Assembly: GCA_025408425.1 (NCBI GenBank)
Contig: JANXYX010000013.1
Coordinates: 124,001-188,000 of the forward strand
Direction: 5' to 3'
Length of the DNA: 64,000 bases
Origin: Granulicella sp.
GTDB lineage: Bacteria > Acidobacteriota > Terriglobia > Terriglobales > Acidobacteriaceae
The position numbers and the translations under genes were made by a program. Below are positions 5,801 to 33,800 of the stretch, in pieces. The notes under the pieces are model-generated. The model ran no database searches, was not told the DNA's origin, and saw nothing but the letters and a program-made list of their open reading frames with translations. Position 1 is the stretch's first letter. Each line of letters opens with the position of its first letter.

Positions 5801-5801
5801 T

Positions 5802-10023: not shown

Positions 10024-10197
10024 ACCATCTGTCGCGCTGTTGGAAAGATGCGTGGGGTTGGGATTGGTTTACTTCGGGTTGATAGGTGCGTGTGTCTGCC
10101 GCTTGCAAACCTTAAAGTAATCGTTTACGTTGCGTATTGGCGATCTGCCGAGACGGCGCATCGTTGTCAAATCAAGCAACGGACTGGTGGCGGTTAT

Positions 10198-14127: not shown

Positions 14128-14212
14128 ATTGGCGGAACCATATGGCACGCGAAATAGAGGTGTCAAGCTTAATGTCGGATATACATCCACATTTATTGGG
14201 AATAAATCTTGA

Positions 14213-15050: not shown

Positions 15051-16307
15051 ATGCCAAGTTACATGATCAATAAGATCTCAACCCACGATGCAAGATACAA
15101 GCTGCCTGCCGGGGCGGGTACCGATGCGGTGCATACGAATCCTGAGTACTGCATGGCGGTGACGCTGCTGGAGAGCGATCATGGGTTGTACGGGACGGGG
15201 ATCGCGCTGACTCTGGGGGAGGGGAACCGGCTGGTGTGCGAGGCGATCGAGTTGCTGGCGCGGCCGCTTGCCGGCCTGGAGATCGAAGAATTGATGTCCG
15301 ACTTTGGGAGTATGGCGCAGCGGCTGGCTAACGATCCATGTCTTCGCTGGCTTGGACCGCACAAGGGCGTAGTGCATCTGGCGCTGGCCTCGATTACGAA
15401 CGCCTGTTTTGATCTATGGGCGAAGAGCCGCGGCGTACCGCTGTGGAAGCTGCTGCTTGATTTGAAGCCGGAGGAGGTCGTTCGGCTGTTGGATCTGAGC
15501 TATCTCGAAGACGAGATGACCGAGCAGGACGCGCTGCAGCTATTGCGCGACAAGATGGGCAGTCGTGCAGAGCGGGCACGTATTCTTGAGACCGGCTATC
15601 CGGGGTACGACACGTCTGTTGGGTGGATGGCCTATGACGACAATAAGGTTCGTGAGTTGACGATGCGAGCGATCGACGAGGGATTCACTGCCTTCAAGTT
15701 GAAGGTGGGTTCCTCCGACCCAACTCGTGACCTGCGTCGTGCCGTGATGCTACGAGAGTGTGTTGGCGATGCGGGGACGTTGATGCTCGATGCCAATCAG
15801 CGCTGGAATGTGCCGGTGGCACTGCGGCGCTGCCGTGAACTTGCGAAGGTTCGGCCGCTCTGGATTGAGGAGCCTACCCATCCTGACGACATACAGGGTC
15901 ATGCAACGCTGGCGCATGCGATTGCACCCGTGAAGGTAGCAACGGGAGAGCACATACCGAATCGCGTTGTATTCAAGAACTTCATGCAGTCTTCGGCGGT
16001 TCATTACGTTCAGGCCGACTGCACGCGATTGGCGGGCGTGAGTGAGTTTCTCGCAGTGAGTCTGATGGCGAAGGAGTTTGGTCTGCCGGTCGCACCGCAC
16101 GTGGGCGACATGGGACAACTGCATCAGCACCTGGTGCTGTTCAACCACATTGCGATGGGGCACGAGGCGTTGCTGCTGGAGCATATCCCACACCTGCGCT
16201 CTCACTTCGTGCAACCTGCGCAGGTGAGCGGTGGGGTTTACAAGACACCGCAGGAGCCGGGCGCTTCCTGTGATCTCAAATTGGTTTCCAGGGGTGGATC
16301 GAAGTGA
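15051..16307 (+). CDS. Enolase-superfamily dehydratase, L-fuconate dehydratase-like
   Basis: A mandelate-racemase-group enzyme of 418 aa. The block RWLGPHKGVVHLALASITNA is typical of L-fuconate dehydratases. FKLKVG supplies the KxK bases, LDANQRW and WIEEP supply metal-binding Asp and Glu, TGEH supplies the third ligand, and APHVGD the catalytic His. The expected reaction is L-fuconate to 2-keto-3-deoxy-L-fuconate in the non-phosphorylating fucose pathway. Fucose dehydrogenase, lactonase and the later steps are not in the window. The ATG has GGGAGAAG just upstream. The stop overlaps the next gene by 4 nt (GTGA). Confidence 0.82.
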   Translation: MPSYMINKISTHDARYKLPAGAGTDAVHTNPEYCMAVTLLESDHGLYGTGIALTLGEGNRLVCEAIELLARPLAGLEIEELMSDFGSMAQRLANDPCLRWLGPHKGVVHLALASITNACFDLWAKSRGVPLWKLLLDLKPEEVVRLLDLSYLEDEMTEQDALQLLRDKMGSRAERARILETGYPGYDTSVGWMAYDDNKVRELTMRAIDEGFTAFKLKVGSSDPTRDLRRAVMLRECVGDAGTLMLDANQRWNVPVALRRCRELAKVRPLWIEEPTHPDDIQGHATLAHAIAPVKVATGEHIPNRVVFKNFMQSSAVHYVQADCTRLAGVSEFLAVSLMAKEFGLPVAPHVGDMGQLHQHLVLFNHIAMGHEALLLEHIPHLRSHFVQPAQVSGGVYKTPQEPGASCDLKLVSRGGSK

Positions 16308-17317
16308 CGCAAAATCTCTTGAACGGCATTACCTTGACCATGATTGCAGGGCTGATGTCGGGCAACTGCATGTTGCCCATGAAGTTCACGCGGTCGTGGA
16401 AGTGGGAGAACGTCTGGCTGATCTTTAGCGTGGTCTCGCTGGTGATTCTGCCGTGGTCGCTTGCCGTGGTTCTGGTGGGTCATCTGCTGGAGATCTATCG
16501 CGGGCTAGGGCTGGGGCAGCTAGCCGTGCCATTGCTGCTGGGAGCAGGCTGGGGCGTTGCGCAGATTCTGTTCGGCATCTCTGTGAAGCGTCTGGGACTA
16601 GGTGTGGCGTATGGCATTATCGTCGGTTTGGGAGCGGTACTGGGGACGCTGGTTCCGCTGCTGATCCAGCAGAACGCGGCAACGATCGGACACGCGGCGT
16701 ACTTCATCTTCAGTGGCGTGATCATCATGGTGGCTGGGGTGTTCTTTACAGCGTGGGGCGGGCAGGTAAGAGAGCGCGGCGTAACGGCCGTAGCGGATAC
16801 GACCTTGCGACAAGGTTACACCGCTGCGATTCTGCTGGCAGTCGTCTGCGGGGTGATGGCGCCGATGCTGAATTACTCTTTTGCCTTTGGGCAGGACATT
16901 GCGAAGGAGGCTGTACGGCTAGGAGCGCCTGCGGTGCACGCGAGCTATGCGGTGTGGCCGATCGCGCTGGCTGGCGGGTTTATTCCGAATATCGCCTACT
17001 GCCTCTATCTACTATCGAAGAACAAGACGTGGGGGCTCTTCCGTGTGCCGGGACAAGACTTCTTCTGGTCATCGCTGATGGGGGTGCTGTGGATGGGAGC
17101 CTTTGCGCTCTACGGTATGAGTGCGAGCTACCTGGGAACCTTCGGAACGTCCATTGGCTGGGGACTCTTCCAAATTTTCATGATTATGACGGCGACATTG
17201 TCTGGAGTTCTAACGGGCGAATGGAAGCGTGCGTCACAGTTGTCCAAGAGCTTGCTGGGTGTAGGACTAACCTGTTTGACTGGTGCGACAATTCTGCTGG
17301 CGCTCGGCAACCGGTAA
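16304..17317 (+). CDS. RhaT-type sugar:proton symporter (10-TM family)
   Basis: A 337-aa hydrophobic protein with about ten membrane spans, related to the E. coli L-rhamnose permease RhaT (LMSGNCMLPMKFTRSWKWEN and GWGVAQILFGISVKRLG stretches). It likely imports a deoxyhexose across the inner membrane. The adjacent fuconate dehydratase suggests L-fucose or a related 6-deoxy sugar. GTG start overlaps the previous stop by 4 nt, so the two genes are almost surely cotranscribed and translationally coupled. Confidence 0.85.
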   Translation: MTQNLLNGITLTMIAGLMSGNCMLPMKFTRSWKWENVWLIFSVVSLVILPWSLAVVLVGHLLEIYRGLGLGQLAVPLLLGAGWGVAQILFGISVKRLGLGVAYGIIVGLGAVLGTLVPLLIQQNAATIGHAAYFIFSGVIIMVAGVFFTAWGGQVRERGVTAVADTTLRQGYTAAILLAVVCGVMAPMLNYSFAFGQDIAKEAVRLGAPAVHASYAVWPIALAGGFIPNIAYCLYLLSKNKTWGLFRVPGQDFFWSSLMGVLWMGAFALYGMSASYLGTFGTSIGWGLFQIFMIMTATLSGVLTGEWKRASQLSKSLLGVGLTCLTGATILLALGNR

Positions 17318-18970: not shown

Positions 18971-21274
18971 TTATTGTTTTGCAAGCGTAGCGCGATTTGA
19001 GTGCGCCTGCATTGCCGAGATCGTGGGTGCGGTGGGCGAGGCAGTTGACTTCCACGACTGCAACTTGCCCTGCACCCACTCCGCTGTCTTTTCGGTGTGG
19101 CAGAGAATGCAGGCGTTAGGGCTATCAGCCTGGCCGAAGCGCATGGTCATCTCTGCATTAGGGATGTCGTCGATCTGGTGCGAGCGGGCACGGAAGAGCA
19201 ATGCGTCCATGATGCGAGGCATGTGGCAAGAGACGCAGCGGCTGGCCTCGGAGTCGCTGGTGTGGTGGGTATGCGCTGCTGCTGCGGTCTTGTCTGCCAA
19301 CTGAGTATGGCAATTGACGCACATGCGATCGGGGTCATCCTTGAACTTCAGCGAAGTGTTATTGGAGGGTCCGTTGTGACTATGTGGATCGTGGCAGCTT
19401 CCGCAGCTGGCGTTGCCTTTGCGAAAGCACTGTGAGCGTTCGAGAGCCTCGACAATAAATGTTGTCTGGCTGAAGCGTCCGTCTTTGTAGAATCCTTTGC
19501 GGGAGAACTCGTCGAAGGGCACGGAAGCATTGCGCAGGAAGAACGTAGCGGTGCTCGAATAGTTCAGTTCTCCGGCGGAATTTGCTGCATGGACGTTGGA
19601 CTGCAGATGACACTGCGCGCAGATGCTGACAAAGTCACGGTTGTTGAGGCGATTGAACTGAACCGGTGGGTCAAGCGGGCCCTTACGATAGGTCTCACCC
19701 GTAGATATGGCCGCGATGTGAGTCGCTGAGGGGCCGTGGCACATCTCGCAGCCAATACCTGGCTCGCGGAAGACAAGATTATCGGCGTCGAGACTGCCAC
19801 CTTTAACGTTACGAAGCTGACTGGTATGACAGATGGCGCAGTTCGCTTTGTAATTTGTAGCGATGCTGAATTGCTCCCAGTTGTAAGGGTTGGAGCGAGT
19901 GGTGCCCGCGCTGTCGATGACCTTCCAGTAGTTCAACCAGCGCTTCTCGATAGTGTTGTATTGAATAGGGAAGACGTGAATCTGTTTGTTGGGCAAGGTG
20001 GTAGCGTAGGCCTGCTGCCATTTAGAGCCGATGATGTAATCAACCGGATAGGAGTGCCAGTGACCATCTGACTGCTTGATGTCGAAGAAGTGGCGGCCGT
20101 TGCGGAGGACCATGCGCGCGAAGAGTGCGCGATCAGGAGCGGGAGTTATCTGAAGATTGCCGTTCCGGTAGGCTATGTCGTCGCCGGCATAGAATTCGTT
20201 GTTGCTTGTGAAGTCGCCGATGACGTTCTCAGGCTGATAGGACCGCAGCATCTTCGACATGCCGCTCTGGTCCCACTGGCGATAGATACCGCCGTGACAG
20301 GTTTTGCAGGCGGCTGATCCAGCGTAGTCGTGATGCTGGGACGCAGATTCGGTGGATGGGGCCGCAGTTGATGGAGCAGAAGGCGCGTGCCTGGCCGCCT
20401 CGTCTACAAATGCTTCAAAATTACCTTTGACCGAAGGTTTGCCAGCGTTATAGATGAGCTGGAGTTGCTCCTTTGCCTGGGGAGCGAATTGTCCGGGCTG
20501 GCGATAGACAAACGCAAATTCGGCAGCTGCGTGGGTGAGGTCATCGGAGAACAAGTAGTCTTCGCCGAGTAGATACGCGATCTCAGTGTCCGCAGGGTTT
20601 AGCGCGCGGGCCTGAGAGAGGGATTCGCCGGCTTGATCGAAAAGAGATGAGCGCAGTGCACCGGTGGGCTGCTGAATCGCCTTCTGGATGAGAGCCCTGC
20701 CAAGGGCGAAGTGGGCGATCGCCTGCTGGCTCCGCTTGATCTCAGGCCAGTCAGCCTCGGTGATAGCGACAGGCCTGGTAAAGCGATCAAGATAGTCGAG
20801 AGCGTCCCGAGCGTTAGATATTGCTATGTCGTTCAAATGCTCGCGGGCCTGAACATCGGCGACGGCGACTAAAAATAGCGGGTTCTCAGGTAACAGGGCC
20901 AACGATTGTCGGGCGTACTCCAATCCAGATTTGGATTCGTTGAGGTCGAAGCTGCTGCGAGCGGCAATCTCATAGGTGGTGGCGAGAAAAGCAGACTGGC
21001 TATAGCTTCGAAGAAATTCCTGTGCGAGTAGGAGCTTCTTGCTGGGGGAGTTTTTTTGAAAGAGCGCGAGGAATGCTGCTCTTTCCGCGGGATCATGGAT
21101 CTCATCAGCGATCGTGGCGGGCTTGCGGTTTTCAGAGGTAATGATGGCGTCTACATCCTGTGCTGCCAGAGGCAGCACCAGGGTCAGGATTGCAATCAAG
21201 AAGGTACATCCGCAGATACACCTGCGTATACTACGGTCTCCCAAGTCGAAGCTGCGTGAGAAATCTAGCCGCAT
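18971..21274 (-). CDS. Octaheme cytochrome c with N-terminal TPR region
   Basis: A 767-aa exported protein with a signal peptide (LIAILTLVLPLAAQ). Residues about 60-320 form TPR-like helices. The rest carries eight CxxCH haem-binding motifs: CKTCH, CAICH, CEMCH, CAQCH, CGSCH, CVNCH, CVSCH and CILCH. The pattern resembles the cytochrome c554/NapC-NrfB-like doubled cassettes found in acidobacteria. It should be a periplasmic electron carrier or oxidoreductase, and TPR helices may dock partners. It is followed 38 bases upstream on the same strand by a giant TPR gene. The exact donor and acceptor are unknown. Confidence 0.8.
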   Translation of the reverse strand: MRLDFSRSFDLGDRSIRRCICGCTFLIAILTLVLPLAAQDVDAIITSENRKPATIADEIHDPAERAAFLALFQKNSPSKKLLLAQEFLRSYSQSAFLATTYEIAARSSFDLNESKSGLEYARQSLALLPENPLFLVAVADVQAREHLNDIAISNARDALDYLDRFTRPVAITEADWPEIKRSQQAIAHFALGRALIQKAIQQPTGALRSSLFDQAGESLSQARALNPADTEIAYLLGEDYLFSDDLTHAAAEFAFVYRQPGQFAPQAKEQLQLIYNAGKPSVKGNFEAFVDEAARHAPSAPSTAAPSTESASQHHDYAGSAACKTCHGGIYRQWDQSGMSKMLRSYQPENVIGDFTSNNEFYAGDDIAYRNGNLQITPAPDRALFARMVLRNGRHFFDIKQSDGHWHSYPVDYIIGSKWQQAYATTLPNKQIHVFPIQYNTIEKRWLNYWKVIDSAGTTRSNPYNWEQFSIATNYKANCAICHTSQLRNVKGGSLDADNLVFREPGIGCEMCHGPSATHIAAISTGETYRKGPLDPPVQFNRLNNRDFVSICAQCHLQSNVHAANSAGELNYSSTATFFLRNASVPFDEFSRKGFYKDGRFSQTTFIVEALERSQCFRKGNASCGSCHDPHSHNGPSNNTSLKFKDDPDRMCVNCHTQLADKTAAAAHTHHTSDSEASRCVSCHMPRIMDALLFRARSHQIDDIPNAEMTMRFGQADSPNACILCHTEKTAEWVQGKLQSWKSTASPTAPTISAMQAHSNRATLAKQ

Positions 21275-21312
21275 AAGCGAAAGAATGATTCAAGGCATCT
21301 TAGCCGAAATTT

Positions 21313-23886
21313 CTACTTTTGCAATGAGTCGAGTATCTGAAGCGCTCTGGTTACATCTGGGTCGGTTGGAGAAAGTTTTTGCGCGGCGAGCAATTCGGCT
21401 CGTCCACTCTTCAATTCGCCGGAGCGGCAATAAATAAGCCCTAGATCTTTATGGAGCAACGGCAGAGCACTGCAGTCTTTGCAGAGTTCAATACCCTCCT
21501 TTAGCTGGGCGATAGCTTGCGGCCAATCATGAGCATCCGCCGAAGCCAGAGCAAAGTTTCCCAGAGTCTGTGCGCGGTCCATGACGTGCTTCTGTGTTTG
21601 CAGGTTGTCGAAGCGAGTCTGCAGACGCTTTGCATCTTCGGGATCGGATTTGGCGAGCAGGCGCGCTAGGTTGTAGAGTGCTTCGCCATAGTCGGGCTGG
21701 ATCTCAATGGCCTTGCGCCACTGCTCGATTGCACCGGCATTGTCCCCCTTGTGCAGTAATTCGCGTCCGAGCATGTAGCGCGCGTCGGCATAGTCAGGCT
21801 TCAACGCAACTGCCCGCGAAAACTGCTGGATGGCCGCATCGGTATCTCCTGATTGGTGTGCAATGAGCCCGAGGAGATACCAGGACTCAGTTGACCCCGA
21901 GTCAAGACTGGTTGCTGCTTCCAACTCCGGTTTTGCTTCCTGGTTGCGCTGAAGATCCAGCAGCACTCTGCCACGGTTGTAATGGGCGACCGCTGTATTT
22001 GGTGCGAGTCTCACCGCTTCAGAGAACGCGGCCAAAGCATCGTTGAGGTTGAACTGATCTGCCAGCGCAATTCCAAGATTCAGGTGAGCTTCCGCCGACT
22101 GGGGATTAAGTTCGATCACCTTACGGAAAGACGCGATGGCGTCGGTGGGACGGCTTAGACGAGTCAACACCATCGCATCGGCGGTGAGAGCTGAGATGTT
22201 GCCGGGCTCAAGCTGTACGGCGTGGTGCAAGACTTCTTCCGCGTCTGCAAATCGTGTCTGTGCCGCTAGAACCAGTCCAAGATTTACGAACGCCTGAGTG
22301 TATTTGGGATTGTTCTCGGTCGCTTGCCGTAACAGTACTTCTGCTTCGTGATTGTGTCCCTGCTGACCATAGAGGACACCCAGATTGCCTTGTGCCTCGG
22401 CGTATTGCGGGTCCAGTGAAATGGCGAGCTTTAGCTGCTGCTCGGCGTCCGCCAACTGGCCTGCCTGCAGGCTGAGCAGTCCAATTTGGTTGTGGGAGGG
22501 AGCGAATGCAGCGTCCAGTGCGATTGACTTGACCAGAGCATCTCGCTCGGACGCGATGTCTCCGGCTTGATCCAGAGCCAACGCGTAATCGTAATAGGTG
22601 CGCGCATTGTTTGGGTCGCCGACGAGAGCTTCGCGGTATAGTTCAAGGGCCTTCTTGACGTCACCAGTAAGCAGATATTGGTTGGCCTGGTTGACCGTTA
22701 CGCCTGCGACGTCCTGCTTGACTGTCTCAGCTTTTTTTTGCTGGAAGACCTTCAACTCCTGGTTTGCCTGATCTTTTTGGCCGAGGGCGCGCAGGACTGA
22801 GGCGAGTTGGAATCGGGCTTCGTTGGACGAGGGATTGAGTTGTAGCGCCTTTTCAAGCTGCACTCGCGCTTCCGCCGGCCTGCCAAGCTTGGCTAGAACA
22901 AAGCCAAGATCGTAGCGGGAATCATAGTTATCCGCGCGTTTCGCAACGGCTTTGGACAGCACTTTTTCCGCTTCGGAATATCTTCCGAGTTCGCGATCTA
23001 CAGATCCCATCAAGTAGAGCGCTTCAAAGTCGTTGGGTTTGCGGCGTAGATATTCTTCCGTCAGCGGCAAAGCGGTATCTGCCTGGGCCAGAATGATCAA
23101 CGCCTTGATGTAAGAGACACGCGCAACGTCATCTGTTGGATCAAGCCGCAGAGCTTGCTGAAATTCGTCTGCCGCATCGCGGTAGCGACTCTGCTGGGTA
23201 TAGATAATGGCTAGGTTTACGTGGGCCTGCGCGTAGTCCGGATGTTCCTTGACGATTGCAGTTAGGGTTTGCAGCGCCTCGTCGAGATTTCCGTTCTTTG
23301 AGTAGGCGATCGCGAGATTCAATTGCAGCACTTCGTCGACTGGCGCATCCTTCAGATAGGTGATGGCCGCCGAGTACCTCTTCTGGGCAATCAGCGCCTT
23401 GGTCAGACCGTCGAGTGCGGGTATTGATCCTGGATCGTTCTGCAGGACAGCTTTGAATGCATCGATAGCTGCTTCTGACTGGTTCGCCTGATTGAGTGCG
23501 ACCCCAAGTGCAAGCTGAATTTGTGGTGTTCCCGGCTTTAGTCCTAACGCGGTCCGCAGCTCTCGTGCAGCTTGTTCTGCATCACCGTGCTGCAGAAGTG
23601 CGATGGCAAGATCGTAATGTGCCTCCCATGATCCCGGGGCAAGTCGAAGCGCGGAGCGGAAGGCAGGGATCGCACAGGAGAGCTGATTGTGCTGCCCAAA
23701 GTAGGCGCCGAGTGCGTCAAAGGCGGCTGCAGTAGGATGCGCCGCAATGGCGCGTTCCAGTTCCGCCGGCCCTTTGCAATGGGAAGCCTGTGGTTGAGAG
23801 ATGGCGCAGCCGCAGCAGCAGAGAACCGTTAGAGCCGAGCGAAATAAACCGGAAGATGTTAGGCGAGCCATCATTGCTGCAAGCAT
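21313..23886 (-). CDS. Large exported TPR-repeat protein
   Basis: An 857-aa protein made almost entirely of tetratricopeptide repeats (about twenty copies of the 34-residue unit, for example AEAHLNLGIALADQFNLNDA). A short hydrophobic N-terminus with CCCGCAIS may be a signal peptide or lipoprotein signal. Start at 23886 has GGGA five bases upstream. TPR solenoids mediate protein contacts, so it is probably a periplasmic scaffold for the octaheme cytochrome encoded next to it. It is divergent from a CRTAC1 gene with 267 bases between. Confidence 0.75.
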   Translation of the reverse strand: MLAAMMARLTSSGLFRSALTVLCCCGCAISQPQASHCKGPAELERAIAAHPTAAAFDALGAYFGQHNQLSCAIPAFRSALRLAPGSWEAHYDLAIALLQHGDAEQAARELRTALGLKPGTPQIQLALGVALNQANQSEAAIDAFKAVLQNDPGSIPALDGLTKALIAQKRYSAAITYLKDAPVDEVLQLNLAIAYSKNGNLDEALQTLTAIVKEHPDYAQAHVNLAIIYTQQSRYRDAADEFQQALRLDPTDDVARVSYIKALIILAQADTALPLTEEYLRRKPNDFEALYLMGSVDRELGRYSEAEKVLSKAVAKRADNYDSRYDLGFVLAKLGRPAEARVQLEKALQLNPSSNEARFQLASVLRALGQKDQANQELKVFQQKKAETVKQDVAGVTVNQANQYLLTGDVKKALELYREALVGDPNNARTYYDYALALDQAGDIASERDALVKSIALDAAFAPSHNQIGLLSLQAGQLADAEQQLKLAISLDPQYAEAQGNLGVLYGQQGHNHEAEVLLRQATENNPKYTQAFVNLGLVLAAQTRFADAEEVLHHAVQLEPGNISALTADAMVLTRLSRPTDAIASFRKVIELNPQSAEAHLNLGIALADQFNLNDALAAFSEAVRLAPNTAVAHYNRGRVLLDLQRNQEAKPELEAATSLDSGSTESWYLLGLIAHQSGDTDAAIQQFSRAVALKPDYADARYMLGRELLHKGDNAGAIEQWRKAIEIQPDYGEALYNLARLLAKSDPEDAKRLQTRFDNLQTQKHVMDRAQTLGNFALASADAHDWPQAIAQLKEGIELCKDCSALPLLHKDLGLIYCRSGELKSGRAELLAAQKLSPTDPDVTRALQILDSLQK

Positions 23887-24153
23887 TCGTGTCCCACTTC
23901 AGTGATGCCCGCATCCTTAAAATCCTGGCGATTAGCGTCGGCCATCTCGGAGCCCGTAACGCATCTCGCGAGAAAATCTTGTGTATGACGGGGAGCCGTA
24001 ACGCTTGCTCTGCATTGTTTTGCAGGTGCGGAGCGTCGCTCGATGAGAAGTCTAGCACAAACAAAAGTTGCTTCTGGAACCGGAGTTCCGATGGAATGAC
24101 TGCGGCGTTATGACTCTGCAGCACGAACGGTTGAGGATGCTAAAATCCGCGAG

Positions 24154-25953
24154 GTGATCAGGAATAGCTCTTTTACTCGCCATGCCAGTCTTCTTCTTGT
24201 CTTGTTATGTTCCGCCTTGCTGGGTTGGTGCGGCACTACTATCGCCTGTGCGCAAGGCATGGGAGTCGCGACCGGGAGCGGTAAATCTGCTCCTGCGAAG
24301 CCTTTGCCTCCAGGGATGAAGGCTCCGGTTGTCCGATACGAAGATATTGCGGCCCAGGCTGGATTGAAGGGCGTCACCATCTCCGGTTCGGAGAAGGGAA
24401 AGCAATACATCATTGAGACCACGGGCACCGGTGTCGCGATCATCGACTATGACAATGATGGGCTCCCCGATATCTTTGTGGTGAACGGCGGGCGGCTTGA
24501 CGCAGAGCAGGCTCCAACTCACTATCTTTACCACAACCTTGGTGGTTTGAAGTTCGAAGACGTGACGGCGAAGTCCGGGCTCGCACACACTGGTTGGGGA
24601 CAAGGGGTATGCGCGGGCGATGTCGATAACGCTGGGAACGTCGACCTGTTTGTCACACAGTGGGGTCAGAATGCGCTTTACCATAATCTCGGAGACGGCA
24701 AGTTTCGTGATGAGGCCAAAGAGCGCGGATTGACGACCGAACAACGGCGGTGGAGCACAGGCTGCGCCTTCGTCGACTTCAACAGGGATGGCTTTCTCGA
24801 TCTGGTAGTGGTGCACTATATCGAATTTGATCCGGCCAAGACACCGCGGCCGGGAGATAAGTCGCAGTGCCGATGGAAGGGGTTGCCCGTGTTGTGTGGT
24901 CCTCGGGGACTGCCGGCGGAGACAGTCTCGCTCTATGAGAACGATGGCCACGGCCATTTCAAAGACGTCTCCGATCAACTCCATGTGACGACGCCAAAGA
25001 ACTACTATGGCTTCACCGCGCTGACGGGCGACTTCGATAATGACGGCTGGCCCGATATTTATGTGGCCTGTGACTCCACAGCAAGCCTCTACTACCACAA
25101 TCTGGCAGGCAAGGGCTTTGAAGAGATTGCAGCGAAGTCCGGTGTTGCCTACAACGAAGATGGCCGCGAGCAGGCTGGGATGGGAGGGAGTGCAGGCGAC
25201 TTTAATCACGATGGTCGCTTGGATATCTTCAAGACCAACTTCGCGGATGACACGCACACGCTCTATCAAAACGAGGGTGACAACAACTTTGTCGATGCAA
25301 CGATTGATAGTGGTCTGGCAGTGAATACGCGTTATCTGGGATGGGGGACCTCGTTTCTCGACTTCGACAACGACGGTTGGCCGGACCTGATCGTCGCGAA
25401 TGGGCACGTCTATCCAGAGGTGGAAGACGGACACACTGGGGAGCGTTTCAAGCAGCAGCGGCTGCTCTACTGGAACCGCGGAGACAGCCAGTTCTTCGAT
25501 CTCTCCGCTGCCGGCGGGCAAGGGATATCCGACGTGCATTCGTCGCGAGGTCTGGCGGTGGGCGACCTGGACAACGACGGGCAGCAGGAGATCGTCATTG
25601 TAAATATGGGAGAGGCGCCGACGCTGCTAAAAAACCTTGCTCCTGTGGCTGGTAGTTCGCTGACCGTGAGGGCTCTGACTGCTAGCGGACGAGATGCGAT
25701 TGGCGCACGGCTGACGTTGACCGTCGGGGGGCATCAGCAGATCGACGAGGTCCGCAGTGGCGGATCGTTTCTGTCGCAGAGCGACCTGCGCCTGCACTTT
25801 GGTTTAGGCAAGGCCACGACTGCGGAACTCACGGTCCGGTGGCTCAGCGGTAAGACGGAGAGCTTTGCAAAGGTTGAAGCCGGACAGATCGTGACGATTC
25901 AAGAGGGCAAGGGTATCGTTCGGAAGCAGCCTTACTCGCTCGCTAAAAAGTAG
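24154..25953 (+). CDS. CRTAC1-family protein (FG-GAP/VCBS beta-propeller plus ASPIC/UnbV)
   Basis: A 599-aa exported protein. The N-terminus MIRNSSFTRHASLLLVLLCS is a signal peptide. Seven Ca-binding-type repeats of the form D-x-D-x-D-G are visible (DYDNDGLPD, DVDNAGNVD, DFNRDGFLD, DFDNDGWPD, DFNHDGRLD, DFDNDGWPD, DLDNDGQQE), consistent with a seven-bladed integrin-like propeller. The last about 90 residues match the ASPIC/UnbV domain (HFGLGKATTAELTVRW). The function in bacteria is not established. GTG start, weak ribosome site. It is a paralogue of the gene at 27015-28727. Confidence 0.82.
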   Translation: MIRNSSFTRHASLLLVLLCSALLGWCGTTIACAQGMGVATGSGKSAPAKPLPPGMKAPVVRYEDIAAQAGLKGVTISGSEKGKQYIIETTGTGVAIIDYDNDGLPDIFVVNGGRLDAEQAPTHYLYHNLGGLKFEDVTAKSGLAHTGWGQGVCAGDVDNAGNVDLFVTQWGQNALYHNLGDGKFRDEAKERGLTTEQRRWSTGCAFVDFNRDGFLDLVVVHYIEFDPAKTPRPGDKSQCRWKGLPVLCGPRGLPAETVSLYENDGHGHFKDVSDQLHVTTPKNYYGFTALTGDFDNDGWPDIYVACDSTASLYYHNLAGKGFEEIAAKSGVAYNEDGREQAGMGGSAGDFNHDGRLDIFKTNFADDTHTLYQNEGDNNFVDATIDSGLAVNTRYLGWGTSFLDFDNDGWPDLIVANGHVYPEVEDGHTGERFKQQRLLYWNRGDSQFFDLSAAGGQGISDVHSSRGLAVGDLDNDGQQEIVIVNMGEAPTLLKNLAPVAGSSLTVRALTASGRDAIGARLTLTVGGHQQIDEVRSGGSFLSQSDLRLHFGLGKATTAELTVRWLSGKTESFAKVEAGQIVTIQEGKGIVRKQPYSLAKK

Positions 25954-25965
25954 TGAGTCGTCGAT

Positions 25966-27018
25966 CTATTGCGGTGGCGCCTGCTCGTATCCCTTGCGCA
26001 CAGGAGGAGGCGTCTCCCGAGTCAGGGCTGCATACTTTTCGGCGAGTTCCGTTTCACCCAGTCGCCGATAGATCTGCTCCAGCAGAGCATAGATCTGGAG
26101 ATCGATGATGCCGCCGGTTTGGCCGGTGAGGCTGGCGGCCTTTTCAGCGTCCGTTCGCGCCTCTGGGTAGTTGCCCATCCGCAGGTTCACCTTCGCGCGG
26201 TCATACCATGTGGCGCGGAAATCGGGCACCAGTTCTACCGCCCGGTCGAGGTGTCGCTTACTCTCGAGGAGTTGGTCACGCTTAGCCAGGAAGCGACCGT
26301 AGTTGTAGTCGAGAAATGCGTCGAAGTGTGGCCCATCCTGGTTTACTGCAAGCGCCTTCTTGTAGGCTGCGTCAGCACGCTCGACCTCGCCGAGTGGTTC
26401 AAGGTTCAGAGCGAGGTAATCCCAAGCAGGAGGGTAACCGGGATCGAGGTCTACGACTTTCTGGAAATGCTTTACAGCATCGGCGGGACGTTTGGCCCGG
26501 TCGTAGAGAGCTCCGAGTTGAAACTGCGCGTCGGCATTGTCCGGATCAAGCTCGCAGGATCTTTTGAGCAATTCCAGTCCGAGTTGGGACTGCCGCTTCA
26601 TATCCAGAATCTGACCACGAACAGCCAGGGCTGCTGGGTCTCCGGGCCCGCGATCCAGAGCGCTGGCGGAGAGATCGTCCGCCCGCTGATACTCAGCTTG
26701 ATCGATGAGGAAACGGGCGAAGTAGGCCATGCCGGTTGAATCGTCTGGTGCTTGTTCCTGGTAACGTAAAAACAGTTCTTGCGCTTCTGCAACAGATCCC
26801 TGCGCGGCTTTGATCCGGGCATGTACAAGTAGCAGTTGTGCGCAATCGGGATGGGCGGCCTCGAGCGGTGCCAACAAGTTCTCAGCAGCGGTCGTCGCAT
26901 TGCGTCCTAGATCTTTTGAAATGGTTTTGAGTTGTGGCTCTATCGCTGTGCAGCTATCCGCGAAGGCAGCTGGAGAAGCTACTGTGATCCATACAAGTGA
27001 GAGCCAAATTGCTTTCAT
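25966..27018 (-). CDS. Exported TPR-repeat protein
   Basis: A 350-aa protein with a signal peptide (MKAIWLSLVWITVASPAAFA) followed by about eight TPR units. It is the third gene of a minus-strand operon. Its ATG overlaps the stop of the upstream CRTAC1 gene by 4 nt. It converges on the other CRTAC1 gene, with only 12 bases between stops. It probably supports assembly or docking of the CRTAC1/cytochrome products. No catalytic motif is seen. Confidence 0.75.
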   Translation of the reverse strand: MKAIWLSLVWITVASPAAFADSCTAIEPQLKTISKDLGRNATTAAENLLAPLEAAHPDCAQLLLVHARIKAAQGSVAEAQELFLRYQEQAPDDSTGMAYFARFLIDQAEYQRADDLSASALDRGPGDPAALAVRGQILDMKRQSQLGLELLKRSCELDPDNADAQFQLGALYDRAKRPADAVKHFQKVVDLDPGYPPAWDYLALNLEPLGEVERADAAYKKALAVNQDGPHFDAFLDYNYGRFLAKRDQLLESKRHLDRAVELVPDFRATWYDRAKVNLRMGNYPEARTDAEKAASLTGQTGGIIDLQIYALLEQIYRRLGETELAEKYAALTRETPPPVRKGYEQAPPQ

Positions 27019-28727
27019 GACGCAGCCTCGGTCACCTTCAGGATTTGATCCGCCTTGACGTTGTGCAGTATCTGGATCGCTCCGCTTGGCCAGCGGAGTT
27101 CGATCTCCTTCACCAGCTTGTCATGACCGAGTCCGAAATGGACTCGCTTATCCGAAGAGCTTGCGTAGCTGCCGGCGGTCGTCACCTGGTTGTACTGTAC
27201 GACGCCCGAGGCTGAGGTCAGTTTGATCTGCGTGCCAATACCATCGCGATTACTCTTGACCCCAATGGCCTGAATCAGTAGCCAATGATTGGCGCTCTCG
27301 GAGGTGTTATAGAGCAGTTCCGCAGGACCCCCAATAGACGAGACGACGATATCGATCTTGCCATCGTTATTCAAGTCGCCGAAAGCACAACCGCGATGGG
27401 CTGCACGCAGGGACAGGGCAGTGCCCGCCTGCGCGCTGACGTCCTGAAACGTACCGTTCTGCAAGTTCAGGAAGACTGCATTGGGCTGCAGGTAGTGCTG
27501 CTGCGGGTCAAGGTCCGCGTTCTCGCTTACATGGGAGTTCGCGCTGAACAAATCCTTGAATCCATCATTGTTCAAGTCGTAGATACCTGCTCCCCAACCG
27601 CTCATCTTGTAGGTGGAGAAGCCGATCTTGGCGGGATAGGTGTCCATGCTGAAGAGGTCGTTACCCTCGTTCCGGTATAGCGGGAAGGTCTCTCCTCCGA
27701 GCGCTGTGATGAAGAGACCAGGCTTGCCGTCGTTGCGATAGTCGCGAAAATCGACGCCCATGCTTGAGACCGGAATGCCATCCTCCGTATAAGCAACGCC
27801 CGCCTCAACACCGACTTCATCGAAGCCCTTGCCCTTGCGGTTCCTGAACAGGAAGTTCCTCTGGTTATCGTTCGCGACGAAGATATCCATCCATCCATCG
27901 GAGTTGTAGTCTGCAATGGCTACGCCCATGCCCTTGCCGATATGACTGGCGATACCCATTGCCACGGAGACGTCGGTGAAGGTGCCATCCCCATTGTTGT
28001 GATACAGAATGTTCGGTTGACCGGGGTAGAGCGAGGGCGGGCAGGATAGCCGCTTACCTGGTTCTCCACAGACTTTGGATGTTTCAGGCGTCCAGTCCAG
28101 ATAATTCGTCACAAAAAGGTCGAGCCGGCCATCGTTGTCGTAGTCGATCCAGGCAGCGGAGACAGCCAACAACTTCTTGCCTTCGGACGTAGCTCCGGAG
28201 ACACCGGCGTGGTCGGTGACATCCGTAAACGTGCCGTCGTGATTATTGCGGTACAGAATATTTCGATTGATCCCGGTGACATAGAGATCGGTCCATCCAT
28301 CATTGTCAAAGTCTGCTGCAGCCGCACCCATGCTGTAGCCTGCACCGCGCAAGCCAGCACGGTCGGTTACGTCGGTAAACGTGCCGTCGTGATTGTTGTG
28401 GTACAGCCGGTTGTGAAAGACCGGGCTGTCCTTGGTGAGAGTTGGAATCTGGGCGCCGTTGGCGAAAAAAATATCCAGGAAGCCATCGTTGTCATAGTCC
28501 AGCAGCGCGACTCCGCCTGGAATACTGTCAACAATTGGTTTGTCGCTGGTGGTTCCGTTGTTCAAGACGAAATCGACGCCTGAATGCAGTTGGTGATTTT
28601 CAAATCGAATCTCGGCGGCGTTCTGGGCAAGCAGGACTGGGGTACATAATGCGAACAGCAATCCGGCTGTGATAGCGAATGTGGATGGGGTATGGCAACG
28701 GCCTCGTTGCAGGCTGGGGTCGATCAT
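27015..28727 (-). CDS. CRTAC1-family protein (FG-GAP/VCBS beta-propeller plus ASPIC/UnbV)
   Basis: A 570-aa exported paralogue of the protein at 24154. Signal peptide near residues 15-35 (AITAGLLFALCTPVLLAQ). Seven Ca-type repeats are visible, among them DYDNDGFLD, DFDNDGWTD, DYDNDGRLD, DYNSDGWMD and DLNNDGFKD. The C-terminus has the ASPIC/UnbV domain (HFGLGHDKLVKEIELRWPSG). It overlaps both operon neighbours by 4 nt, which implies coupled translation with a heptaheme cytochrome and a TPR protein. Confidence 0.82.
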   Translation of the reverse strand: MIDPSLQRGRCHTPSTFAITAGLLFALCTPVLLAQNAAEIRFENHQLHSGVDFVLNNGTTSDKPIVDSIPGGVALLDYDNDGFLDIFFANGAQIPTLTKDSPVFHNRLYHNNHDGTFTDVTDRAGLRGAGYSMGAAAADFDNDGWTDLYVTGINRNILYRNNHDGTFTDVTDHAGVSGATSEGKKLLAVSAAWIDYDNDGRLDLFVTNYLDWTPETSKVCGEPGKRLSCPPSLYPGQPNILYHNNGDGTFTDVSVAMGIASHIGKGMGVAIADYNSDGWMDIFVANDNQRNFLFRNRKGKGFDEVGVEAGVAYTEDGIPVSSMGVDFRDYRNDGKPGLFITALGGETFPLYRNEGNDLFSMDTYPAKIGFSTYKMSGWGAGIYDLNNDGFKDLFSANSHVSENADLDPQQHYLQPNAVFLNLQNGTFQDVSAQAGTALSLRAAHRGCAFGDLNNDGKIDIVVSSIGGPAELLYNTSESANHWLLIQAIGVKSNRDGIGTQIKLTSASGVVQYNQVTTAGSYASSSDKRVHFGLGHDKLVKEIELRWPSGAIQILHNVKADQILKVTEAAS

Positions 28728-30532
28728 TTCTGTGCAGGTTCTCCTTTGGCCAGACCCAGCATCTTCCGCATGTAGGAATCCTGCGGGAATATCTCCAGGT
28801 AGTGCTCCATTGCGACCAGTGCGTTCGCGTATTGCTTCAAACTGATGAGGCGCACAACCAGTGTCTTTTGCAGCACTGGATTGAAGGGATCGAGCGCCGT
28901 TGCTTTCTGCAGCAGGACGATGCCTTCCTCAGGCCGTCCCAGCTTTGTGGTGACCTCGGCTAGATCGCCATAAACCGTGGCTTGTGGCGGTCCGATCTGT
29001 AGCGCGCGCTGCAGATGGTCGGCGGCTTCCTGCAGCTTGCCACTCTTGAGATCTCTGCGGCCCAGAGCAGCCTGCACGATTGCCTTGCCGGGATCGGTCT
29101 GCTCCAGTTGCGCGAGAACCTTGAGATAGGGAGCGACATACTCGGGTTTATTCGCTGCAAGCTCGCCGTAGGCCTGCAAAAGCGTTAGCGGGGGGATCAC
29201 ATCGTCCTTGGTCCCGGGTACAGGATTTAGATGGATCAGGTCGGGCAAGGCCGGAGTCGTCTGGTGAAAGGCGGTCTCCGGAAAGCTTTCGTCGGGTCGG
29301 GCGAGAATCCGGTGGCTGGTGACGCTGGAGTGCGAAATCACCTGCACATCACGTTTCGGCATGTGGCACCCAATGCAGTTATCCGCGGGCTTGCTTTGCT
29401 CACGGGAGGCAAGGGGAAGTTTGCAACTCTGTTTCGTATGGCAGGTCATGCAGCGCGCATTGAAGTATGCCGGGGCCTCTTCCCGCGAGGGTTCGACGTG
29501 CGGATTGTGGCAGGTGATGCATCCCATCCGGCCTGGGCTGGCCCGATAGCACTTGCTCAACGTCATCGAGTAGAAGTGCTCCAGATGATCGGCCTGTGGG
29601 GGGGCTTGTGGGTCTGGAGGAACCATCAGGATCGAAAGGACATCGTCGAGGGGTTTCCCAGGCCTGAAGTCCTGATATGTCTTGCCCTCTTTGAAAATTC
29701 GCTCATTGCCGGTCTGATGGCAGGACATGCAGATGTTATTTGCCAGATCCATGCTGAGGCCGGCAGGATTTACGATGCCGTTCCCCTTTTCGGGCGAGTC
29801 GTCTGAATCCATGGCGCGAATATGGGCTGCGCCTGGTCCGTGACAGTTTTCGCAGCCGATCGCCATTTCACGAAACGGGGGTGTCTCAAAACGACCAACG
29901 GTTGCGGCTATCGGCTGCGGACGTCCGCTATGGCAGGAGATGCAACCAGCCAGAATGGGACGGTTAAATCCGTAGTCACCAAACTCGTACCCAGGAGACG
30001 GCCCCCAGGTGCCTGGTTTGGAGTAGAAGGATAAGGGTGCCTGGAAGAGAAAGTTGTCGCGTTGAACCAAAGCTCCAAAGCCATTGGCTCCAGCTCCAAT
30101 GATCCAATCGAGTTTTTGCGTGTCGCGGAAGATGTCTTTCCCCTCCGTGTCCGTCTGGTACTCGCTCTGGTAGAGCTTTCCTTCTTTGGCATGTACCTCA
30201 AAGTGCCGGTCCAGCTTGGCATCGTAAAGGTCCGCGGAGGAGGGGAGAGTCTGCAGGAGCTCTGGAGTAATCGCAGCCATCGAACGCCCCATGCTGGTCC
30301 GCGAAAACTGCTTATAAATCCCCAAGTGACACCGGGAGCAACTTGCCGCCCCCACGTAGCCTTCGTGGTCCTGAGGCGCTGTGTGCTGGAGGGCTTCAGC
30401 TTCAGGTTGCTTAGCGGCGGCGGGGGGCGCCTTCCTTGTTTGTCCGAAACCCTCCAGCAGCAGGAGGGTAGAAAGCACGCTGCACACTATCGATCCTGCG
30501 TACTGTTTCAACCGGCGCTGGTGAGTCCTCAT
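28724..30532 (-). CDS. Heptaheme cytochrome c with C-terminal TPR region
   Basis: A 602-aa exported protein, first gene of the minus-strand operon cytochrome-CRTAC1-TPR. Signal peptide SIVCSVLSTLLLLEGFG. Seven CxxCH motifs are visible: CSRCH, CISCH, CENCH, CMSCH, CITCH, CMTCH and CIGCH. The last about 160 residues are TPR helices (LQEAADHLQRALQIGPPQAT). The domain order is the reverse of the octaheme protein at 18971. Probably a periplasmic or outer-membrane-associated electron carrier. Partners are inferred from the operon only. Confidence 0.8.
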   Translation of the reverse strand: MRTHQRRLKQYAGSIVCSVLSTLLLLEGFGQTRKAPPAAAKQPEAEALQHTAPQDHEGYVGAASCSRCHLGIYKQFSRTSMGRSMAAITPELLQTLPSSADLYDAKLDRHFEVHAKEGKLYQSEYQTDTEGKDIFRDTQKLDWIIGAGANGFGALVQRDNFLFQAPLSFYSKPGTWGPSPGYEFGDYGFNRPILAGCISCHSGRPQPIAATVGRFETPPFREMAIGCENCHGPGAAHIRAMDSDDSPEKGNGIVNPAGLSMDLANNICMSCHQTGNERIFKEGKTYQDFRPGKPLDDVLSILMVPPDPQAPPQADHLEHFYSMTLSKCYRASPGRMGCITCHNPHVEPSREEAPAYFNARCMTCHTKQSCKLPLASREQSKPADNCIGCHMPKRDVQVISHSSVTSHRILARPDESFPETAFHQTTPALPDLIHLNPVPGTKDDVIPPLTLLQAYGELAANKPEYVAPYLKVLAQLEQTDPGKAIVQAALGRRDLKSGKLQEAADHLQRALQIGPPQATVYGDLAEVTTKLGRPEEGIVLLQKATALDPFNPVLQKTLVVRLISLKQYANALVAMEHYLEIFPQDSYMRKMLGLAKGEPAQK

Positions 30533-30740: not shown

Positions 30741-30858
30741 TGTGTTTCAAGTCAAGTTAGCGTAAAAGTAAAGGAACAAGTGCCCCGTTGAGAGGTGCGT
30801 TTTCTTGACCTTCAAGGTAGCGAACATGCAGAAAAGAAAGACTTTATGGAGGTTAGGC

Positions 30859-33800
30859 GTGCAAATTGAAAACCGCGAGCGCAATAGAATCGTGAAGAAA
30901 TTATTTAGAAGTGTTGTCCTGCTGAGCAGCGTAATCCTGCTGTTCTCAGTTCAGATGTTTGCCCAACTTTCCACAGCGGCACTGAACGGCGTAGTTCGCG
31001 ATCCGACTTTAGCGGTGGTTCCCAGCGCTAAAGTGTCGCTGACAGCCGTGGATACCTCAGTGGTCCGCACGACCGTCTCCAACAATGCCGGCGAATATGT
31101 CTTCACCAGTCTCACTCCGGGCCGGTACACCGTCGAAGCGACCGCCTCGGGCTTCCAGTCGAAGAAGGTCTCGCAGTTCCTACTTGCCTTGGGGCAGACG
31201 GGTACGATCGACTTCTCGCTCACCATTGGCTCTGAGAGCAGTGTTGTGACTGTCGAAGCGTCGGCGCAGCAGTTGGATGCTACCAGCTCCAATCTGGGCA
31301 CGGTACTCGCCACCAAGCAGGTAAACGACCTTCCAACGAATGGCCGTAACTTCACCGCACTCCTTTCGCTGACACCCGGCGTTGTGCCGGTCAGCACCGG
31401 TCAAAACGGCGGCATGGGTGGTGGCGGATTTACCGCACCTGTCGCAGTAGGCGCCGCGTTCACCTTTCCTGCAATCAACGGAGCAACAAACCGCAGCAAC
31501 TTCTTCCTGACCGACGGTCTGAACAACTTTGGCAGCTTTCTCAGCACGTACGCCGTTCCTCCCATTATCGATGCAATTCAAGAGGTCAAGGTCGTCTCCC
31601 ATACCGACAGTGCTGAATATGGTTCTGTGCTGGGTGGCGTGGTCAACGTCGTCAGCAAGTCCGGTGGTAATGCTTTCCATGGCTCTGCATGGGAGTACCT
31701 CCGCAATGAAGCGTTCGATGCCCGTTCGTATTTCCTCCCAAAGACGCAGCCTAAGGCAACCTTCCATCAGAACCAGTTTGGCGGATCTGCTGGCGGGCCG
31801 GTGTTGATCCCGAAGCTTTACAACGGCAGGGATAAGACCTTCTTCTTCGCTGCTTACCAGGGATTCCGCTACAACACCCCTGCCAACAACAATCTGAAGG
31901 TGCCGACGGCGGCCCAGCTTGCTGGCGACCTGACGGGATCCCCTCAGATCTACGATCCTTTCTCCACTGTTCCTGATCCTCTGCACCCTGGTCAGTACCT
32001 GCGCACACCTTTTGTCGGAAACCAAATTCCGACAAACAGGATTGATCAGCGCATGGTGGCCTATGCGCAGTTCATATTCCCCACAGCTGGTGCAGTAGTC
32101 GATGCCAATGGTGACAACGCGATCGATTCCACACCTCTGGTGCAGACCGAGAACGAATACAACGCTAGAATCGACCAGAACTTTGGCCAAAAGAATTCGG
32201 TTTGGTTTCGCTATAGCGCAATCAACGACGTGACAAACCACTCGGGCGGCCTTCCTGGACTGCTCGCCCAAAACACCCTTCCCGCTCGTAACTGGGGAGG
32301 TAGCTATGTGCATACTTTTGGACCAAGCCTTATCGCGCAGGTGCAATATGCCCGAACGACGGTTCAGTCCAACTCGACGACTCTGTGGAATAAGTCAATC
32401 GACGCTGTCTTCAAAACCGCCGGATTTTCGACTGGATTTGCAGGCGGTTTTGCCGGAAATGGCGGCGGTAATCTGCTCCCCTCACCGGGAATCAGTGGCT
32501 ATTCGGGTGGCGGCGAGAGTATTCAAGCTACTCCTAAAGCCACAGACAGCCACCAGGTTAGTGGTGTGGTTACCAAGATCCTTGGCAATCATGAACTGCG
32601 GATCGGTGGCGGGTTCATCAGTAACGAATTTGCCAGCCCCATCTCGTACGCTAACCTCACCTTCCAGGCGCAGCAGACGGCGAACCCCAACGTTGCGGGT
32701 ACGGGCAATGCGCTCGCATCCTTCCTCCTGGGAGTTCCAGACGGAGCTAATCGCCGGAATGTGAATGAAACCACACGCCCCGGCGGAGTTATGGACTTCT
32801 TCCTCCAGGACTCCTGGAAGGCGACGCAAAAGCTCACGGTCAATGCAGGTCTGCGCTATGACTATTCCTTCCTTCCCGCATACGGTACCGACGCCACGAT
32901 TGGTCAGCAAGGTGGCATCGAGACCGGTGACATGAACTTCAATGACGGCACTTATGTGTTGCAGAAGCTGCCGCCATCGTGCACCTCGCGCGGCTTTGCT
33001 CCCTGCATCCCTGGCAATGGCCAGTTGCCGGCACACGTTGTGATCGATCCTCGCGGCAAGATCTCCCATAACGTTCCTGACAACTTTGGACCACGCCTGG
33101 GGCTGTCCTACCGACTTGGAGAGAAGACGGTTATTCACGGTGGTTTCGGTGTGGTGTTTGACAACTGGGCTGCTGTAGCCCAGATGGCACAGAATATCGA
33201 AGGCGCGTGGCCTGATATCGGACAACTGATCTCAAACGGTCAGAACCAGCCAACCTCGACCTCGGCGAGGCCAACCGTAACACCGCAGGATCCTTTCGGC
33301 GGCGGCGGCGGGGGACTCTTCCCGGCTGCTACACCATTCAACCAGGTGCAGTGGTTCTATGATCCAAACATCAAGAATGCCTACTCGGAGCAGTGGAACG
33401 TTGGAGTGCAGCGTCAGTTGACTCCTTCTACCGCACTAACCGTCAACTATGTCGGATCTACTTCGCATCGGGTGATCACAGGCGGCTACTACAACACCGC
33501 CTTGACTCCTGGGCCGGGCGATCCACAGGCACGCGCCCTCTACCCGTACATCGGCCCCACGTTCTACGATCGCAGCACCGGGACCGCTTCTTATAACGCA
33601 GGCCAGCTCCAGTTGGATAAGCGCTACTCCAATGGATTGTCCTACTCCGTTGGTTACACCTACTCCAAGTCGATCAATGCCGGCGGTGACGGCTGGTTCG
33701 GTGCGGAAGGCGGTGTGCCAGTTGACCCCTATCACCCGAATGCCTTCGGAAGTCGCTCTGTCTCCGGTACGGACCTGACGCACGTCCTGACCGAAAATAC

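Follow-up and report, generated by a model that had tools for sequence, protein, structure and literature searches.

This analysis concerns a block of genes in a 64,000-nucleotide stretch (contig JANXYX010000013.1, positions 124,001 to 188,000; hereafter the window) of the genome of Granulicella sp., a soil acidobacterium (4.23 Mb in 53 contigs). The block combines genes for multihaem cytochromes (oct, hept and hept2), tetratricopeptide repeat (TPR) proteins (bigTPR and the small TPR), two CRTAC1-type propeller proteins (CRT_A and CRT_B) and a TonB/Oar-like outer-membrane beta-barrel. We tentatively read it as one envelope redox cassette of an alpha-L-fucoside utilisation locus, with a confidence that falls a little short of even. 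The observations beneath this reading are the gene content, the operon hept-CRT_B-TPR, the conserved linkage of the parts in relatives, the predicted fold of hept and a recurrent closeness to fucosidase genes. A total of 45 window genes were called by script (homology first, longest open reading frame, ORF), and the Pfam scan covered 30 of their proteins.

Conserved linkage and the fucosidase neighbourhood

As the first-pass annotation had it, hept, CRT_B and TPR make up one operon whose genes overlap by 4 nt at both joints (27015-27018 and 28724-28727), and these overlaps are real; in relatives, the genes overlap at the same two joints by 1 and 4 nt (locus L036) or by 4 and 4 nt (L039), whereas at L038 an overlap of 4 nt at one joint is followed by a gap of 7 nt at the other. 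The order barrel, hept, CRT_B, TPR, (CRT_A reversed), bigTPR is preserved in genomes G022 and G155, with an alpha-galactosidase-like gene inserted between barrel and hept in G155, and it recurs without CRT_B and TPR in G001 and without CRT_A in G094, while G122 has the order hept, bigTPR, barrel. Orthologues of CRT_A occupy the matching position at three loci (L036, L037 and L038), those of the small TPR gene are found at L036, L038 and L039, and 15 of 26 acidobacterial orthologue loci have a TonB-like gene no more than 5 kb from hept. A counterpart of hept2 stands beside the barrel in the nearest relative, G022 (68% identical), while in G090 a 41% identical one lies at a distance of some 6 kb from hept. 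The borders drawn initially, from oct to hept, therefore proved too narrow, as both the TonB/Oar-like gene and the haem-rich hept2 recur with the block in relatives.

Co-inheritance was assessed in 151 genomes of the class, with the best few candidates scored per genome. A hept match above 280 bits was present in 25 genomes; oct exceeded 220 bits in 10, nine of which also carried hept (p 2e-7; 9/13 at a looser E 1e-40, p 1e-5), and bigTPR (E 1e-100) was present in 19, of which 16 carried hept (p 1e-12), all of these p values being too small because related genomes are not independent. Where both partners were present, oct and hept were at most 10.2 kb apart in eight of nine genomes (the ninth having them on separate contigs), and bigTPR and hept at most 11.2 kb apart in 12 of 16, the remaining four again being split between contigs. 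Co-inheritance and linkage of the parts across families are thus upheld; the earlier statement that gene coupling shows joint action holds as far as conserved linkage goes, coupling being evidence for such action rather than proof of it.

The block had been considered impossible to assign to a known pathway, a verdict that can now be narrowed, since it lies between two glycoside hydrolase family 29 (GH29) genes here and fucosidase genes recur in relatives. By sequence, a fucoside-type gene set can be recognised in the window (GH95, two GH29, FCD and LacI regulators and a RhaT-like permease). A GH29/GH95-like gene was found at 8 of 36 distinct hept loci (37 listed loci minus L084, which repeats L052) vs. 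1 of 45 CRTAC1 loci (p 0.009). The Pfam scans of neighbours covered 88 of 90 listed genes (two TPR genes excluded) and 102 of 127 control genes. Across the 25 hept genomes, which hold from 0 to 21 GH29 genes each, GH29 lies within 12 kb of hept in eight (0.6 expected from genome-wide counts); for bigTPR, 8 of 16 genomes have one at 5 kb or less (0.23 expected), and for oct, five of nine at 12 kb or less (0.29 expected). In addition, a LacI-type gene (L037, 8132-9154) directly precedes hept in G001 with a 4-nt overlap with its longest-ORF start, and the same overlap is made by an IclR gene in G094 (L039).

Haem domains of the cytochromes

Sequence searches of the PDB with whole hept, as well as the first fold search, were dominated by TPR chains, and a model of the haem domain only was used instead. 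The full model (predicted local distance difference test score, pLDDT, 88.2) has OcwA as its best fold match (Z 13.4 over 288 residues), and the domain-only model (pLDDT 89.9) matches OcwA (6I5B) with Z 16.5 over 299 residues at 3.8 A, followed by 6qvm (Z 11.8), the undecahaem surface cytochrome OmhA of Carboxydothermus ferrireducens, and by MccA (4RKM; Z 9.4 over 273 residues). The best unrelated row reaches Z 7.0 over 83 residues of the insert only, a level that c554 (Z 5.3) does not exceed; no chain of HAO, NrfA or OTR is among the fold matches listed, which carries no weight on their fold. The haem domain of hept is thus predicted by modelling to have the OcwA/OmhA/MccA fold, and the haem-redox character originally attributed to the complex is supported by these matches. 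In both models, haem 1 and haem 2 are separated by 9-10 strands, within the range aligned to OcwA and MccA, and an extra beta-sheet domain is common to these two enzymes (PMC6703420). In hept, the stretch aligned with OcwA extends to residue 416, and residues 448-595 are modelled as nine helices of a TPR array. For oct, a 7-row profile matches OcwA (6i5b, E 5.8e-13), c554 (E 2.8e-6) and MccA (E 0.0016).

OcwA (of Thermincola potens) and 6QVM resemble hept in having a beta-sheet insert behind haem 1 of the haem domain, but carry nine and eleven haems, respectively, vs. seven in hept and eight in oct, and have a different gene context; OcwA further differs in ending with a three-helix bundle where hept has its TPR part and in having His where both window cytochromes have Met at the aligned site. 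MccA, an octahaem sulfite reductase sharing the fold of hept, carries an unusual haem motif and holds copper by two Cys at haem 2. No unusual haem motif was found in hept or oct, and no sulfur genes were recognised among the scanned window proteins. An MccA-like copper site is at most a candidate, given conserved non-haem Cys (see below) but no MccA among the proteins matched by the C-terminal octahaem profile.

Over 53 hept-type sequences from several phyla, all CxxCH motifs are invariant together with His237, His345, His407 and Cys328, while Met81 and His401 are kept in at least 90%. Met81 of hept aligns with a His of OcwA, and Met339 of oct with a His of both OcwA and c554; this His is presumably a distal haem ligand, and a change of ligand from His to Met usually raises the haem potential. 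Eight to ten residues ahead of haem 5, 21/21 hept and 8/8 oct sequences have a non-haem Cys; the spacing is exactly 8 residues in all eight oct sequences (two of which, L052 and L084, come from the same genome). Of the 21 hept sequences, 16 carry a further non-haem Cys 9 residues past the first position of the haem-6 motif. These conserved residues may form a metal or disulfide site. All motifs are CxxCH, with no other CxxC in hept or oct and none of the CxxCK type of the NrfA catalytic haem. Matches to the DmsE/GSU2203 decahaem families are far below the NCBIfam cut-offs, and the match of hept to the Pfam family Mtrc-MtrF (OmcA/MtrC type) scores 24.5 against a cut-off of 30.

These likenesses could also point to two alternative functions. 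The closest solved relatives of hept (OcwA and 6qvm) are surface cytochromes, and OcwA has the published role of a cell-surface terminal reductase (PMC6703420), so that hept and oct could serve extracellular electron transfer as OcwA-like terminal reductases onto minerals or humics, anchored at the surface by CRTAC1 and TPR proteins. We regard this as unlikely: four COX1 matches in the own genome (which also has three Cytochrom_C_asm matches) suggest an aerobe, the barrel is of the Oar type and the 30 scanned window proteins include no recognisable MtrB-type porin, the Met in place of His suggests a potential above the norm for metal reduction, and the closeness to fucosidase genes is left unexplained. 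Alternatively, the proteins could be MccA/c554-type reductases or detoxifiers of small molecules (nitrite, hydroxylamine, sulfite), with TPR and CRTAC1 parts keeping them in the envelope. The fold scores to MccA and c554 would agree with this, as would the invariant non-haem Cys before haem 5, a molybdopterin oxidoreductase gene about 20 kb off (50169-52931), and the activity of OcwA itself, which reduces nitrite (slowly) and reacts with hydroxylamine (PMC6703420). Such a role nevertheless appears very unlikely given the presence of CxxCH motifs only (no NrfA-like CxxCK), the lack of any other recognised nitrogen or sulfur oxyanion gene among the 30 scanned window proteins and, again, the fucosidase link, for which it does not account.

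CRTAC1 proteins and their partners

The first-pass annotation took the block for a repeated module. This is contradicted by the assignment of CRT_A and CRT_B to different subfamilies and by the only distant similarity of oct to hept (62-64 bits). In a CRTAC1 tree (quick method, one fork left open), CRT_B is closest to an own-genome copy on contig C3, CRT_A groups with the own-genome copies on C30, C42 and C19 (fork support 92, drawn open), and the orthologues from G022 and G155 cluster separately with CRT_A and with CRT_B. Because the tree splits the two CRTAC1 proteins and the cytochromes are distant, a tandem duplication of the module is ruled out, subject to the open fork; judging from the sequences, the block is one cassette with paralogous parts.

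CRT_B matches human CRTAC1 (9etn_A, E 8.3e-16). A CRTAC1 gene lies within 5 kb of hept at 12 of 26 acidobacterial orthologue loci, 4 of 12 acidobacterial paralogue loci, 4 of 16 named acidobacterial loci and 13 of 29 planctomycete loci, the genome-wide density of such genes being 0-8 per Mb (below 4 in all counted genomes but two). These groups were sorted by hand on the basis of record titles, Rhodothermia being placed with Bacteroidota. Flanks are short at many loci, L058 (broken frame) and the planctomycete L097 were dropped, and not all loci are independent (L086 and L090 share one contig, L091 and L096 one genome, and L084 has the sequence of L052). On a quick tree of 121 cytochrome domains, the label of CRTAC1 proximity changes 21 times, at least 11 of these changes being forced by starred branches, and it is clustered (mean of 31.8 changes after shuffling, with 0 of 500 shuffles as low).

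For the CRTAC1 family at large, 40 genes from relatives were sampled (approximately every second of some 150 best rows, the own genome and three cassette rows excluded; full 5-kb flanks in 27 of 40) and set against 74 mutually dependent control anchors from 20 hand-picked round-number regions. Within 5 kb, a TPR gene was found in 23/40 vs. 1/74 cases, a gene with at least four CxxCH in 8/40 vs. 0/74 and another CRTAC1 gene in 7/40 vs. 2/74; among the control regions of 20 kb, 0/20 contained a gene with at least four CxxCH. A TPR protein is therefore the usual partner of CRTAC1, and a cytochrome a recurrent minority partner. The first-pass annotation had named CRTAC1 and cytochrome genes lying mostly apart as evidence against its proposal, and they do lie apart for the family as a whole (32 of 40 sampled), but not for the orthologous pair. 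Each of the eight multihaem neighbours counted here is a pentahaem protein whose haem spacing resembles that of c554, and six also show a TPR signal. In the own genome, the window accounts for two of the eight CRTAC1 copies; for the other six, the genes called nearby include none with at least four CxxCH. Of these six, the C30 pair and the C42 copy have a strong TPR gene directly upstream, and the C41 copy is preceded by a weaker TPR call.

These data bear on a further alternative, namely, that the CRTAC1/TPR and the multihaem proteins represent separate envelope functions in a loose neighbourhood, one accessory island with no joint complex. Most CRTAC1 copies do occur without cytochromes and many hept copies without CRTAC1. 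Set against this are the gene overlap at the hept-CRT_B joint in four genomes, the clustered and at least 11-fold forced changes of the CRTAC1-proximity label, and the pairing with CRTAC1 of a different, pentahaem type of cytochrome as well, and we consider a mere neighbourhood quite unlikely.

In the literature, a gene annotated as CRTAC1 family in two clades is flanked by those for the alpha and the beta-gamma subunits of HZS-like enzymes (PMC12758564), a case that fits the pattern of CRTAC1 beside a multihaem enzyme, although the haem enzyme of these hydrazine-synthase-like clusters is a different one, and an ASPIC gene appears in tables of paralogues (PMC3174227).

Several side observations concern the same families. 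Pentahaem proteins of approximately 650-925 aa, most with a TPR signal, are found near CRTAC1 at nine loci (L166, L173, L174, L179, L180, L189, L190, L194 and L073). A pentahaem protein of the own genome on contig C9 (L075:9603-11900; C554 and TPR families) is 64% identical to that of L190, with no CRTAC1 within the surrounding stretch examined. UnbV_ASPIC genes number up to 14 per genome in 41 relatives searched (none in 12), and an extreme expansion is seen in G209 and G188, the genomes of L152 and L100 (46 and 44 matches, respectively, the count of 46 being that of an acidobacterial record). Two own-genome CRTAC1 copies lie near a glucuronyl-esterase-like gene (L005:7521-8834) and beside a weak GH10/GH5-like gene (L001:6041-7258); from these surroundings, CRTAC1 may be tied more widely to plant cell wall use. 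In Bacteroidota, heptahaem genes without CRTAC1 stand directly before an mltG-like (YceG) gene at eight loci (L105, L126, L127, L131, L143, L145, L146 and L147) or have a putative tyrosyl-tRNA synthetase gene, recognised by eye, directly upstream at six (L107, L110, L114, L116, L117 and L119). In Planctomycetota, a prepilin-like DUF1559 gene (assigned by Pfam at L086 and by clustering elsewhere) recurs near heptahaem/CRTAC1 genes at L086, L091, L093, L095, L096, L102, L104 and L121.

Gene content and proposed role

All six genes first annotated exist at their given positions, with eight haem motifs in oct and seven in hept as claimed (Table 1). The description of the propellers as calcium-type fits their sequences, CRT_A and CRT_B being above the UnbV_ASPIC and FG-GAP cut-offs and having 5 and 6 DxDxDG-type motifs. 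The TPR part of oct is less clear than its haems: Pfam gives no TPR match for it at E 0.1 and NCBIfam only one below threshold, while a 7-homologue profile matches designed TPR chains (best E 5.5e-6). Export of all six products agrees with a heuristic by which each has a hydrophobic segment near its N-terminus (best 12-mer Kyte-Doolittle 2.1-2.9, preceded by 1-5 positive residues) and no strong internal one. Because of these signal-like N-termini and the outer-membrane barrel gene within the block, an envelope location, as originally suggested, is retained.

Table 1. Genes of the block and of its fucoside-type surroundings (window coordinates)
Gene	Position	Strand	Description
GH95	10048..12720	+	Fucoside-type gene, other side of block
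GH29	12766..14190	-	Fucoside-type gene, other side of block
GntR/FCD regulator	14272..14946	+	Other side of block
MR/MLE enolase-type enzyme	15051..16307	+	Other side of block
RhaT-like permease	16304..17317	+	Other side of block
oct	18971..21274	-	N-terminal helical, weakly TPR-like region and octahaem cytochrome domain, OcwA/c554-related; 8 CxxCH; Cytochrome_C554 above Pfam cut-off
bigTPR	21313..23886	-	Large exported-looking TPR protein; 12 TPR_2 stretches
CRT_A	24154..25953	+	CRTAC1-type, divergent from bigTPR; UnbV_ASPIC 73.6 bits, FG-GAP_3 159 bits
TPR	25966..27018	-	Small exported-looking TPR protein, operon gene 3; TPR families above cut-off
CRT_B	27015..28727	-	CRTAC1-type, operon gene 2; UnbV_ASPIC 75.9 bits
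hept	28724..30532	-	Operon gene 1; heptahaem domain (residues ~57-416) and C-terminal TPR; 7 CxxCH; TPR families above Pfam cut-off
TonB/Oar-like outer-membrane beta-barrel	30805..34320	+	Divergent from hept; OMP_b-brl_4 682 bits, N-terminal CarboxypepD_reg 70.8 bits
hept2	34739..35911	-	Second heptahaem protein, 390 aa, convergent with barrel gene; 7 CxxCH; Cytochrome_C554 above cut-off; no TPR match in Pfam scan
GH29 alpha-L-fucosidase	35961..37646	-	Flanks block; Alpha_L_fucos 343.6 bits
LacI-type regulator	37932..38945	-	LacI and Peripla_BP families

Elsewhere in the window, genes at 3046-8436 resemble reductive pyrimidine breakdown (dihydropyrimidine dehydrogenase parts, an amidohydrolase and an M20 hydrolase), and the molybdopterin oxidoreductase at 50169-52931 has NuoG-like iron-sulfur domains.

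In the cassette as we envisage it, sugar-type regulators would turn expression on, and the Oar-type barrel would carry a fucosylated ligand, or a cassette protein, over the outer membrane. The Ca2+-binding CRTAC1 propellers together with the TPR proteins would form a docking scaffold at the surface or in the periplasm, onto which the hepta- and octahaem proteins may dock via their own TPR or TPR-like parts. An extracytoplasmic redox step would then take place at haem 2, on a substrate that may be a sugar, a by-product or an electron shuttle, while the other haems would exchange electrons with the respiratory chain. A flow of electrons from the oxidised sugar or by-product to terminal oxidases is the favoured direction, because the Met found for the aligned His in both cytochromes should raise the potential of one haem; it is also the weakest step of the proposed sequence.

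Sus-type glycan uptake systems likewise join glycoside hydrolases and a sugar regulator to a TonB-type barrel in one locus; by comparison, multihaem cytochromes and CRTAC1 proteins are found only in the present one, where no SusD-family match was obtained among the 30 scanned of the 45 called genes. The PSCyt cytochromes of freshwater Verrucomicrobia occur near sulfatase and glycoside hydrolase genes, with a carbohydrate role proposed, but they belong to another cytochrome family by their published domains, and the accessible sections of the source describe no CRTAC1 or Oar-type partner (PMC5615132). The window barrel resembles Oar of Myxococcus xanthus, an outer-membrane barrel with a CarboxypepD_reg N-terminus that is needed for PopC secretion (PMC6434023); it differs from Oar in having no Pfam Plug match at E 0.1. 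A sequence search gave no solved relative for the window barrel. The barrel may, by analogy, be an exporter that places the CRTAC1, TPR and cytochrome proteins on the cell surface, with the redox part secondary. Its Oar-type domains (CarboxypepD_reg and OMP_b-brl_4) and its conserved divergent arrangement with hept speak for such a function, which we nonetheless hold to be improbable, as the cargo is only putative and TonB-like genes are not enriched near CRTAC1 genes generally (9/40 vs. 11/74 within 5 kb of the sampled and control genes); by the same count, CRTAC1 and a TonB-like barrel are unsupported as a general pair.

The reading of the block as a redox cassette of fucoside utilisation has to be weighed against a number of contrary points, of which this missing enrichment is one. 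With regard to fucosidases, the contrast with control regions is modest (a GH29/GH95-like gene at 8/36 distinct hept loci vs. 0/20 regions, p 0.04), 17 of the 25 hept genomes have no GH29 within 12 kb (some of them because contigs are short), and the link was first noticed in the window, G094 and G122, without which it stands at 5/22. GH29 distances were read by hand with widths set post hoc, the expectation near bigTPR ignores second bigTPR copies in some genomes, and one of the bigTPR cases (G058) is a weak partial match. The 30 scanned window proteins include no recognisable periplasmic sugar dehydrogenase. With regard to CRTAC1, no such gene lies within 5 kb of hept at any of 28 Bacteroidota or six other loci (full flanks at 15 and 3, respectively), and the cytochrome can therefore work without the propeller. 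An open, active-site haem 2 is attributed to hept and oct by analogy only, as in OcwA and MccA, and the complex as well as the haem loading, localisation and activity of its proteins are predicted from sequence and unproven.

A more far-reaching proposal would be that (i) OcwA/MccA-type enzymes, held on CRTAC1/TPR scaffolds at an Oar-type transporter, oxidise or activate fucosylated sugars outside the cytoplasm, and (ii) extracytoplasmic multihaem enzymes of Acidobacteriota and Planctomycetota generally dock onto CRTAC1; taken together, we view these two statements as rather doubtful. The combination of genes is new, while its parts are known and include no new fold. In the literature reachable to us (subscription journals and preprints excluded), neither a description of this combination nor a function of bacterial CRTAC1 proteins was found; the closest precedents are the PSCyt cytochromes and the Oar-dependent secretion described above.

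Overall, the cassette ties CRTAC1 to TPR proteins, multihaem cytochromes and fucosidase genes, and in doing so provides a concrete system in which the function of CRTAC1 can be addressed. It points to an unexplored envelope redox step during plant-sugar use and, if the proposed redox step is true, glycan use by soil bacteria would have an extracytoplasmic electron-transfer component.

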